Below are positions 37,298-43,200 of a stretch of DNA of 64,000 nt, one piece after another (positions within the stretch are counted from its first letter, which is position 1; every line of letters begins with the position of its first letter). This DNA comes from Norana najaformis. Taxonomy: Eukaryota; Annelida; Clitellata; Crassiclitellata; Hormogastridae. Both the position numbers and the translations under genes were made by a program. A model generated the notes under the pieces. It searched no databases. It saw only the letters and a list, made by a program, of their open reading frames with translations, and was not told where the DNA came from. The DNA lies in the NCBI GenBank assembly GCA_964023275.1, contig OZ029921.1, positions 17,210,204 to 17,274,203 of the forward strand, read 5' to 3'.

Positions 37298-40200
37298 ATG
37301 CCGCGTCATCGACCACCAAATACATCTCTTTACGTCAGAAATGTTCCAGAAGATGCCAGGTAAAATGAAAGTGGCTTTCTAAATTATGAAGTGCGTTTAA
37401 TGCCAGAAAAGTGAAACTAATATTGGTTTGCATACCTGAATAGTTTGGTCTGACTAAAAGCCGATTTAGATGCTCAGCTTAGCTTAAAAATGGCGGAGAA
37501 GCAGCTGTCCAGATTACACGTAAAACGATTTGCTTTTAACGAAGCACGCTTCGAATAGAAACTTGCAAATTTTCTTTAATCTGCACTTAGCTTATTTTCT
37601 TTTTTGTGGTATCATAGATAACCTTAGCCAAAATTATTACATATTATACGCCGAACGTTAGATTAGTTGGTAAAATTTGACTTAGCCAGACTACGACCAA
37701 TCTCATGTTTAGAGTGTGGCAGTCTCATCATATCTGATGGGTAGTGAGTTCGTTCCAATCGGGAAAACTTGGAAAACGAAGTTTTTATTGCATTTTGTTG
37801 TTGTGCATGACTGGAACTTCGTAGATCGGGACAATGGCGAGGTACACAAAACGTGGAGAACATGTGGATGCATACAAATGCAAACTGAAAAGACAGTGTT
37901 TATACGTGTTTTAACTGTCCAAAGGAAAAATTCAAAACCTTGCCTAGTGTGACATTTAAGGCAACCAGTGTAATCCTAACATCTAGTCACAAATGGCTTG
38001 AAGCATGTCATCAGCATATCTATCAATAGTAATCAGCCTGGAAGGAAGACCATGAACAAGTGCCAGGATATTCTCAGTAGCATAACTTCACATATTGGAC
38101 TTACCTGCAGGATTATGTGAACAGGTTTTCTTGGCTCCACTCCAAGGAATCCTGTGCTGAATGAGCTCATTTTGCAGATTTGCATCTGAGACACCCTGCA
38201 GTTACAATCCAAGTTATGCCAATGCACCATAATGCAGAAAAATCTATGTAACATAGAGTAAGGGTCTGATAGAATCTGTAATGGTAGGGAGCCAATTGCT
38301 CAAGCAAAAATGGAGCTTTTCCTGAAGTGAGAATTATTTTAAATTAGTTTCATCAATGTTCAGATGTATATTTCAGTTTTCTATATCCATTTGCAGTATT
38401 GCATCTTAGTTAATGATTCTTGTACCTACATTTCCTGTAAGTGTAACAATCCTAATACAGTTCGGTACCATGTATCTCGTCTTGTCAGGTGAAAATAAAG
38501 CCTACTTGTTGACTTACTTTTAAAGAATGTCAGACTGAGCACAAGGACTTCAAGCTCACGATTAATTCATAATGTATTTTACCCAAGACTAAACCCTACA
38601 ATGTGAAATGGATCTAGGACTTCATATCATTACAGTTGATGTACGTTATCTAGTGTTACGTTATACGGATTACACAAGATTAATGTTCTTTGTATATGAT
38701 TTCTTTTTTTCCAAATTCATGCAAATGTTTACTCTTTTGAACAGGGCTGAAGATCTGAGGGGCATGTTCAGCAAGTACGGACCAGTAACAGATGTCTATA
38801 TTCCTTTGGACTACTACACAAGACGTCACCGAGGATTTGCCTATGTTCAATATCCTTGGAAATATTAAATGGTACACACTAAATAAAATTAGGATATTCT
38901 TTATTACATAATTTGCTAAAAACTTGACATATCTTGTAAAGGATTATATAAATTTGAGAATTGTCTTATACTGAGAAAATATCAATAAGTAAATACGAGA
39001 GCAGAAGAGAAAAGAAGTTCTCATCTGGTTCTGGTCTGGCGTAAGTAGGTGTATTTCTCTCTGTATTCAGAACAGTTAAAAAGCACTAGTGTTTGGAACA
39101 GTTCATACTGACACAGAAGTAGGTTCATAATAATGTTCATATTAACTCAACTTTCCTTTTTCCTAAGGTAAATTCTGACTTTGACTTAAAATGAAATTCA
39201 GGATAAGTCAAAATTGCTGAGCAGTGATGGCTATTTATCGCTTTTATATTTAGCTTTGTATCTGTAGAACAACATGTAATGACATTTTATTGTCTTGTTT
39301 TATTTACTGTATAGAAGTCAAAGCATTAAAGTCCAAAGCAAAGCTAAAGTTTTTACCTAAAGCTAATGTAACCCTGCGTCAAGTGCCAAAGTTTAAAGAA
39401 AAGTCCTAATTAAGATTTCAAACGACAAAGTTCAAGCAAGGCTGAACTGAAGGTTGAAAACAAAGTTCAAAGATGATAAAAGATCAAAGTGAAACCTGAC
39501 TAACAGTAAAGGTGGACTGATGTTGGGGTATTCCACAGCTAATGGTAAGAGTGCAGACTGTCAAATGAAGCAGTATTAATAAAGATGATAATAAAAGCAG
39601 AGCTACATATTAAAAGTACTGCAACGATCAGAGCAGCCTAAAAATGCCGGCTTGCACAACGGTTAATCGTGGGGCTTGGCTAAGATCAGAAAGGTCTTCC
39701 TGGTTGTTAAAGGTTTTCATGTGGCTTCACAGAAAGGATGAATTTCTCGGACTGGCCTTAAAGTCGTGGTAAAAAGCAAAAGGCATTGCTAAACAGAGAG
39801 CAATGATAGAGAGTGGTAATATGTTTGACTGAAAGTCTACATCTTGAGACCTGGCTGAAAGTGATGAGCTACACTGAGTAGCAGCTTGATTAAAAGCATC
39901 AAGTGGTGACTGAAAGGCTACTACAACATGTGGTGACGTGCTGGAAAGTTAAACTTGAAGCAGAGACTCACTCAGGTGATTACAACATTAAGAGTTAGAC
40001 TTTAACAATAAAAGACTTCATCAAGCAGCTGAAGTGAAGTTGGAACAGCATGGCATGCTGAAGCCAGCAGTGTAATATTTTTTGCTCTTTAGATAATAAT
40101 GCATGTTAAATTAAATTTATTTTTTCATTTCCTCTTGTAGCGGTAAATATGCTCTAGCATAACATGTGTAATGAGCAACAATAGCTCTCATGATACTGAA

Positions 40201-43200
40201 AATTTTGTGGCTTTTTGGAATATCTTAAATTCTGTTAAATGAAGTCGGATAAAAGTAAATCGTAGATTGTAGTAGAATTTCTTAACAAGCCGTACGTTTG
40301 AGGATCCACGTGATGCTGATGAAGCTCTGTACTACATGAATCGCATTCGTTACATGGGAGCTGAACTGGAAGTAGAGATGGCACGTAGTGATCGGAAAAG
40401 TAAGTGATTTGAATGGCACGTTTCTTTGCTACATATTTAGTTCTGTGCCATTCCTTCATCACTGTTCAACATTTGTCCAAAATTTAGTGGGTCTCCTTTT
40501 GACTTTTAGTTAGTGTTTCCTCCTAGCTAATTTTGTTTTCGTTATGTATCTGACCTACTTGAGTTTGTTTATTTCCACAGGCATTCGTTCAAGTTGATTG
40601 TCCCATTTTCAGCTTCCAGAATTTAAACATGCAGCAATTTGTTTCTGGATTTATTTGATATCCGTAGCCCACCATGAAATGGCCATCAAAACGTCCACCA
40701 GATGAAATGTCCTTTTTGGTAACAAGCAGCTGAACTAATCTTATTATTTGGTGCAGACATATGTTGTATATCCAATTTATAACCTGTTGACTTTCAATTT
40801 TGTAGCTCCTCAGACAATGCGTGCGAAGGAACGTGGGGGTTCACCTTATTATGGTCGATATAACGAGGATGACGACTATTACCGAAGGCACAAGGAGCGC
40901 TCATACAGCCGAAGTCCAAGAAGGTAAGAGACATTTAGTACATTTGTGTGTACAACACTGAACAAAAAAGATTTTTCTTCCTGAACACTTGGGTGTATCT
41001 TATGGATTTTGGGCTGCTGATCATGAAAATCACCTTCAAATTTTCCTATTATGTACCTTTTTTGGAATTGCCCATTTCTTATTTCTGTGCATTTTCAGTC
41101 TACTAATATGTTGCCCATAAGTAAGCTGTTTTGTTTAGTCCAGGGATGCCTGGATATGCGCTCAGTGCAGGTTGCACAATGTGCTATGAAATGCTAATGC
41201 TTAGGCATGCCTGGGCATGCTTAGTTGGGATTGATGCTGGCAGGACAGACTGTAAAAGTAGCTTGCATAGACAGATGCTATGCATTATGGTGATATCAGT
41301 TTGTATGTATGTTGATGCTTGTGTTCTGCAAGCATTGATAGCATAGTGTGCATACTTTAAAAGCCATTTTTTTTGTCTACAGGAGATTCATTGCAGCAGA
41401 AATGCCAATACTGCAACAGCCACAATACATTCTGTTACATTTGTTACAAATATATGCTTAAGCCTCAAAGACGCACCATGACTTCACTTGTTAAGAAATA
41501 GTATAAACTCTACTTTGGTTGTAAAATTGGTGATCAAGACAGACCCTGAGCTCCTCTCGTTTGCTGTGTGACATGTGCTGTCGATCTGAGAACTTGGCTG
41601 AGAGATACTCAGAAGTCAATGCCATTTGCTGTCCCAATGATATGGGAAGAACAGAAGGATCACATGACGGGCTGTTACTTTTCTCACTGACCATTGTCTC
41701 TGGCTTCTCTGCTAAAATAAGAAATCTATTGAATACCCCAGTTATTTGGGACTGGCAATTTTTAAGACTGTTATTAGTTTTTGTGAAATTATTTGTAACC
41801 CAATGTGGTGCTTTGGTTAAAACAAGGCTTGACATTTTTATTGAAAAATTTAATGCTGCAAATTTTATGAAAATGTATCACAAGACAGAGCAGTGCTTAC
41901 ATGTTATAATGTTGTTTCAGGCACCGTGGTCGAAGCCGAAGTCCTTACAGGTAATCTTTGTGCTCTGACCTTTTGTTTTCGAATATCTGATATCTCTGAT
42001 ATCTTTTGCATTATGTCGTTAAGATTAGTCTTGTTCAAAGCAGAAAGTGCACTGACATTTTTTAGCATATTTAAAAGATTTCCCAATTGCAGCATTTCAG
42101 CTGACTTAAATTTATTAGGTTTGTCAGGCATACACATTTAATTTTTGTTTGTACACGTTTGTACTGTGTTATTGGGATGTTTTTTAAAATACGTTGCTCA
42201 TCTGCTGCTTTAGCATTAACATTTGTCCTTTGTTTACCACTATAGCTACATTTTGGTACATCATAAACTGCATCATAGAATAGTTGGATTTGAAAGGGGT
42301 TGGGGGTTCCACTCAGATAAGCCAAATTCAACCCACAGTTGTAAAAAATTGGCCTAGGCTCAGTTTTAATCTCCCCTCCCAAAAAACCTTTCCTGGTGAA
42401 GTTTGATCCTGTTAATTATCACTGATCATGTTCACTCTTTAGTGCAAAACAGTGCATAACTACTAAGCCACTGTGCAAAGTACTAGGAAGATATATATAT
42501 ATAATATATATACAGTAGAAAATGCTTAACACAAAAATGTTTTAACATAAAAGGGATTCTTAGCCCGTTCCAGCATCAACGAAAACAAAAAAAAATATGT
42601 TTGTCCTGCAGAGAAAATGCAATACAAAGCCTTGGATAACCCGAAATGTTGATTTATTTTTGACATTAGGTTGCTCTCATCCAACCTGAAACAGTCGTAT
42701 TTTGTTTCAAGTTGCACTTACAGGCCTTCGTGAAAACGTTCATAACAGTGCTGTGACACTTTGACCTGTACTGTTTATAACCTTGCCAGCTCACAGCATC
42801 AGTGATGACCTTTGCATTCCTGGGAAGATACTTTAAGTTTAGAAAAGAATATAAGATGTAGCATTTAAATTATTACATACTACATAGGCCAAGGTAGATA
42901 TTTGCTACCGGTTATGGCCAATGTCGACTAAATCTGGGCTCCAAGATAATCTTACTCTTTGTTATGACTCATCTTTTGAAGCATGGTAATGTTTGATTTT
43001 GAACATAGTATCTTCAAATTTTTAAAAGCTTATCTTTTGAATTAAGTACCACAAAGGAAAGAATTAGTCTGTGTAGTCTTCTGGAATTGAAAAAAAAATG
43101 GTTAAGATGAAATATGGTTAACATGAATTGTTCACATTAATCCCATGCATTTCGCATTAAACAGTTCGGACTGTACGTCTGTATGGGGTATGAGCAAATT

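Follow-up and report, generated by a model that had tools for sequence, protein, structure and literature searches.

In mammals, exon 2 of Srsf10 can be joined to either of two exons. In the coding mRNA an upstream minor donor is spliced to exon 4, by removal of an AT-AC intron of the U12 type, and a downstream major donor leads to exon 3, which carries a GA-rich SRSF10-responsive enhancer (nucleotides (nt) 17–60) and a poly(A) site. In addition, minor-spliceosome abundance correlates with Srsf10 and other SR proteins (Meinke et al. 2020, PMC7244321; this paper and the others below are cited from excerpts). Here we describe an SRSF10-like gene on the plus strand of a 64,000-nt stretch of the annelid Norana najaformis (contig OZ029921.1, positions 17,210,204 to 17,274,203), the whole of which is called the window. 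Its second intron, at 38850–40295, carries the termini and signals of a U12-type AT-AC intron.

The locus resembles the mammalian Srsf10/dn-E3 switch in that the gene looks orthologous, an AT-AC U12-type intron leads from exon 2 to a frame-continuing exon, and a stop follows soon after the minor donor. Mammals, however, are reported to have a competing major donor in exon 2, an enhancer exon 3 and a poly(A) site, whereas the annelid intron offers candidate pieces, among them a block that is AAAG-rich and not GA-rich like the mammalian enhancer. The initial annotation had claimed the same arrangement as in mammals. Intron subtype and place (exon 2 to the next coding exon) indeed agree with the excerpts of PMC7244321, but the parts of the switch are candidates only. 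This kind of intron is already known in mammalian Srsf10, and the annelid locus adds a case to it.

A second described system, the nested intron of Drosophila prospero (excerpts of PMC8329584), is similar in having an AT-AC intron around major-type sites and a purine-rich element. It differs in gene, in that each of its two paths makes a protein isoform of its own, and in that its element binds Hrp36/Hrp38; the inner major sites of the annelid intron are candidates. The excerpts of a genome-wide survey (PMC10639083) report an enrichment of minor introns in molluscs and certain other protostomes and give 116 as common to human and A. californica, according to one reconstruction from aligned genes, and its authors favour largely neutral evolution of minor introns. 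The annelid gene is like the minor introns common to human and protostomes in apparently retaining such an intron in an old RNA-processing gene; unlike here, SRSF10 is cited in the excerpts of that survey for Meinke 2020, and not as a shared case. A search of the open-access literature, with supplementary tables outside it, found no description of this intron in invertebrate SRSF10. A similar minor intron in an apparently distant animal gives direct access to the age of the switch, which may be ancient or may have been added later to an old intron, and this question bears on the dispute whether minor introns persist by regulation or by drift.

The SRSF10-like gene and its AT-AC intron

Seven exons between 37298 and 44167 join into a single open frame of 176 amino acids, with an RRM domain (RRM_1, E = 1.3e-20) and an arginine/serine-rich (RS) tail:

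37298–37359, plus strand: coding exon 1; its codons end with a partial AG, and a GTAAAA donor adjoins
38745–38849, plus strand: coding exon 2; runs up to the U12-type 5' splice site, which interrupts RNP1 in the RRM (...RGFAYV-CA)
40296–40399, plus strand: coding exon 3, from G-TTT-GAG-GAT... to ...ARSDRK; its place is that of mammalian exon 4
40806–40923, plus strand: coding exon 4, in which the RS region begins
41921–41950, plus strand: coding exon 5, RS repeats
43398–43463, plus strand: coding exon 6, RS repeats
44122–44167, plus strand: coding exon 7, carrying the stop

The predicted product shares 59 of 95 aligned residues with human SRSF10, 43 of 90 with SRSF2 and 34 of 83 with TRA2B, in a comparison limited to working versions of these three human sequences. 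In common with human SRSF10, the RRM is followed by DRKTP-x-x-M-x-AKE. By these sequences the predicted protein, an RRM with an RS tail, is nearer SRSF10 than SRSF2 or TRA2B, in line with the SRSF10-like RRM named in the initial annotation.

Five of the six introns have GT-AG termini. Intron 2 is the exception, with AT-AC termini and the following elements:

38850–40295, plus strand: minor (U12-type) AT-AC intron 2, 1446 nt, phase 2
38850–38857, plus strand: U12-type 5' splice site ATATCCTT, 8 of 8 consensus letters at positions +1 to +8, with G at +9
38866–38868, plus strand: in-frame TAA, reached if the minor splice site is unused; the protein would end at 61 amino acids, within RNP1
40278–40286, plus strand: U12-type branch site TTTCTTAAC, 8 of 9 letters of the consensus, followed by N7-AC
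40294–40295, plus strand: terminal AC of the intron, read from the letters

The junction reads GCC TAT GTT CA / ATATCCTTGG ... TTTCTTAACAAGCCGTAC / G TTT GAG GAT. The 5' splice site at 38850 has the form [A/G]TATCCTT of U12-type AT-AC introns. The branch-like TTTCTTAAC, which differs in one letter from the U12-type consensus TTCCTTAAC, lies near the 3' end of the intron, with its second A 11 nt 5' of the first exon base and with no strong polypyrimidine tract. Removal of the intron brings back the reading frame of the conserved domain. The donor, branch site and terminal AC proposed earlier for 38850–40295 are thereby upheld. The in-frame stop begins at intron base 17; as a sign of the mammalian-type switch it is weak, because a stop soon turns up by chance.

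Very probably, intron 2 is an AT-AC intron truly of the minor class, in an animal orthologue of SRSF10, and it probably descends from an intron of an ancestor common to mammals and this animal. The human SRSF10 intron presumably splits the identical codon; a literature text search for the junction strings found none. In the mechanism that we propose, the U11/U12 di-snRNP (small nuclear ribonucleoprotein) would recognise AUAUCCUU and UUUCUUAAC, U4atac/U6atac.U5 would carry out the splicing chemistry, and exon 2 would be spliced to coding exon 3 in phase 2, so that RNP1 of the RRM is completed. If minor splicing fails, either by retention of the intron or by use of a downstream major donor, translation would run into the TAA at 38866 and yield the 61-residue protein. 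With a stop this close to the donor, productive SRSF10 mRNA would depend on the minor spliceosome with or without a competing exon, as judged from the signals, the frame and the stop codon. We infer that the organism possesses a minor spliceosome and that its cells splice the intron in this way. That the animal uses this dependence to regulate SRSF10 appears about evenly balanced.

Several observations weigh against this assignment. The SRSF10 orthology leans on working versions of the human sequences, and no SRSF10 chain was found in the best 60 of 113 matches of a PDB search, where multi-RRM proteins lead (85.4 and 80 bits), SRSF2 reaches 64.3 bits and TRA2B at most 49.6 bits. PDB entry 2cqc, labelled 'Arginine/serine-rich splicing factor 10', we take to be TRA2B under an old name. 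No Rfam family reached its gathering score in the 64-kb window, which says little for a stretch of 64 kb, and collections of viral and prokaryotic contigs gave 7 and 189 pattern matches, none of them confirmed as a related locus. Finally, the excerpts of an older survey (PMC2831892) describe massive loss of U12-type introns in invertebrates, and since about 20% were kept in its invertebrate comparisons, retention of this intron is not to be assumed.

Chance matches and alternative junctions

The letters of the splice signals are by themselves not rare. On both strands of the window RTATCCTT occurs 3 times, against 4.67 expected, and 60 simulations gave 0.57 expected pairs per 64-kb strand of an exact ATATCCTT with a branch site (at most 1 mismatch) 60–3000 nt after it and then AC. 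The frequency of the motifs was accordingly rejected as proof of a minor intron. The donor is matched exactly at two further places, by GTATCCTTTT on the minus strand (2981) and by ATATCCTT on the plus strand (34885). Both are within chance numbers and were set aside; inspection by eye revealed no coding exon ahead of 2981. Chance is ruled out because the signals coincide with a coding junction, and not by motif frequency: the probability that both signals fall on that junction is about 1e-8 to 1e-7, by rough arithmetic from the motif rates.

The choice of junction was examined with 7650 pairs of exon edges, the donor side ranging over 38815–38899 and the acceptor side over 40240–40329. Open and in-frame junctions were obtained for 925 pairs. 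The top score, 299, belongs to three registers of one and the same junction (AT-AC, TA-CG and AT-GT), and only the AT-AC register has known splice termini. Among junctions with conventional termini, this one, 38849/40296, alone gives Y-V-Q-F-E-D without gap or insertion, and the restored Y-V-Q-F-E-D of the initial annotation holds as the best conventional junction of the 925. The runners-up among conventional junctions have AT-AC termini and insert extra residues (scores 286 and 285), and the other conventional junctions listed also drop or gain residues. The best GT-AG junction scores 271 and alters RNP1; GT-AG and GC-AG junctions were rejected, since every one of them scores below AT-AC.

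These results bear on the possibility that the major spliceosome removes the AT-AC intron, or that the junction is an artefact of another gene structure. At least one AT-AC intron, human SCN4A intron 21, is of the major type according to the excerpts of PMC2831892, and donor/branch pairs of the kind simulated above are not rare. On a table for major-type (U2) splice sites, however, the five GT donors of the gene score 2.1 to 6.3, whereas intron 2 scores -6.9 at its donor and -1.5 at its acceptor. Donor and branch site fit the minor consensus, and none of the GT-AG pairs tested leaves the RRM intact. We regard this explanation as highly improbable.

At the minor donor (38829–38859), pairing is possible between CCGAGGAU in the exon and AUCCUUGG, which covers the donor. 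An RNA hairpin hiding the minor donor was rejected, as the overall fold is not above shuffled sequences (z-score -0.54; 62 of 200 shuffles equally good).

Candidate switch elements within the intron

In mammals the counterpart of intron 2 is regulated (excerpts of PMC7244321), and the annelid intron may in addition to its minor-class identity hold an autoregulatory switch of the mammalian type. SRSF10 would then bind an AAAG-rich block at 39301–40060 and activate the preceding major-class acceptor (39315 or 39168), the major spliceosome would take one of the donors at 39041, 39119 and 39168, 3' of the minor site, and the transcript would end at an internal poly(A) site, with its stop at 38866. 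Two of the candidate parts are extended elements:

38997–39041, plus strand: purine-rich run (38997–39017), then GGC/GTAAGTAG at 39041, a low-scoring (1.6) candidate major donor
39301–40060, plus strand: AAAG-rich, T-poor block with 30 AAAG in 760 nt and T-rich flanks; candidate counterpart of mammalian exon 3

The block is striking. Its AAAG count tops that of all 760-nt windows taken in 50-nt steps on either strand. Over the whole intron AAAG occurs 34 times, against 20.2 in dinucleotide shuffles (none of 500 as high, and none of 166 further segments, taken with overlap from the two strands), and CAAAG 8 times against 3.5 (7 of 500 shuffles; 1 of 166 segments). The excess falls in 39301–40060 and is densest right after the candidate acceptor at 39315, and the place of the block roughly matches that of the mammalian autoregulatory exon 3. 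The AAAG test was, however, picked after inspection of the sequence. Purines are denser elsewhere in the window than in the block. Decay of a tandem repeat was rejected as its origin, as no clear autocorrelation period (0.315 against 0.273 expected) and no tandem array are present there; short TGACTGAAAG-like repeats do occur in it and leave room for a repeat origin.

In the excerpts of a review (PMC9022966) AAAGACAAA and DGARRR are listed as SRSF10 motifs. Eight sites within 2 mismatches of AAAGACAAA lie in 39314–39494, which places this motif first among 72 motifs of the same composition there, but 118 of 1000 local simulations gave a cluster at least as large. When windows are fixed at 180 nt, the 7 sites found here are equalled at 25232 (plus strand) and exceeded near 14700 (minus strand; 9 sites). 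Over the whole intron AAAGACAAA has 13 sites at 2 mismatches, against 9.8 expected (95 of 500 shuffles; rank 4 of 72), and 1 site at 1 mismatch, against 1.1. DGARRR occurs 18 times, against 19.1, and 329 of 500 shuffles reach its count.

Major-class signals are also present. Four acceptors in the intron score at least 4, where shuffles give 0.7 and 1 of 500 has as many, but their number is matched or exceeded in 26 of 166 segments of the window, and the acceptor at 39315 scores just 1.0. The candidate downstream major donors are at 39041 (1.6), 39119 (2.1) and 39168 (3.9). Donors number 5, against 4.1 (198 of 500 shuffles reach this), and the GTs from 38850 to 39118 score -10.6 to 1.6. Likewise, the intron contains four AATAAA, but 2.3 are expected from shuffles and 110 of 500 reach four.

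At 39168 a strong acceptor abuts a fair donor, CTTTCCTTTTTCCTAAG/GTAAATTC (acceptor 5.7, donor 3.9), in a manner that resembles a recursive splice site. As an intron-specific feature such a site was rejected, since the two strands together hold five, where about 0.73 per strand would be expected.

The contents of the intron are thus a lead, and an autoregulatory switch is not shown by DNA alone. The ancient autoregulatory circuit put forward in the initial annotation does not find support so far, as the counts of donors, AATAAA and published SRSF10 motifs are not clearly above those in shuffles. The presence of the intron is itself weak evidence for the circuit, because distant animals share minor introns in many genes and this sharing is argued to be mostly neutral. 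We consider a mammalian-type switch in this intron doubtful. A still more speculative version, which we think unlikely, is that the AAAG block is a cluster of SRSF10 sites and the invertebrate counterpart of exon 3, that the minor/major feedback switch predates the split of vertebrates from this lineage, and that the enhancer letters have turned over with place and job kept. An ancient minor intron that is kept by drift and spliced constitutively, with no special regulatory role, is also compatible with the identity of intron 2. Neutral processes account for much of minor-intron evolution in the excerpts of PMC10639083, and only AAAG/CAAAG and the number of acceptors exceed shuffles among the features counted, but the regulated mammalian counterpart argues against this view. 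Its probability comes near to, without reaching, an even one.

Other features of the window

In intron 3 of the SRSF10-like gene, at 40582–40600, CAG/GCATTCGTTCAAGTTGA would give an early stop if taken as the start of an exon; its acceptor score is -1.7. Elsewhere in the window exons of other genes, a possible transposon remnant and tandem arrays were recognised:

45181–45486, minus strand: molybdopterin-binding domain exon, 22.5 bits, below the Pfam cutoff of 26.6; gephyrin-like by eye
34326–34514, minus strand: Ras-family GTPase exon, Rab27-like by eye
19578–19943, plus strand: Shroom ASD2 domain exon, an animal-type domain of another gene
55637–55954, plus strand: open reading frame with DNA-binding domains of Brinker type and of Tc5 transposase, possibly left by a transposon
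29966–30752: tandem array, 43 bp x 18.3
32774–33867: tandem array, 187 bp x 5.9
13558–13973: tandem array, 106 bp x 3.9

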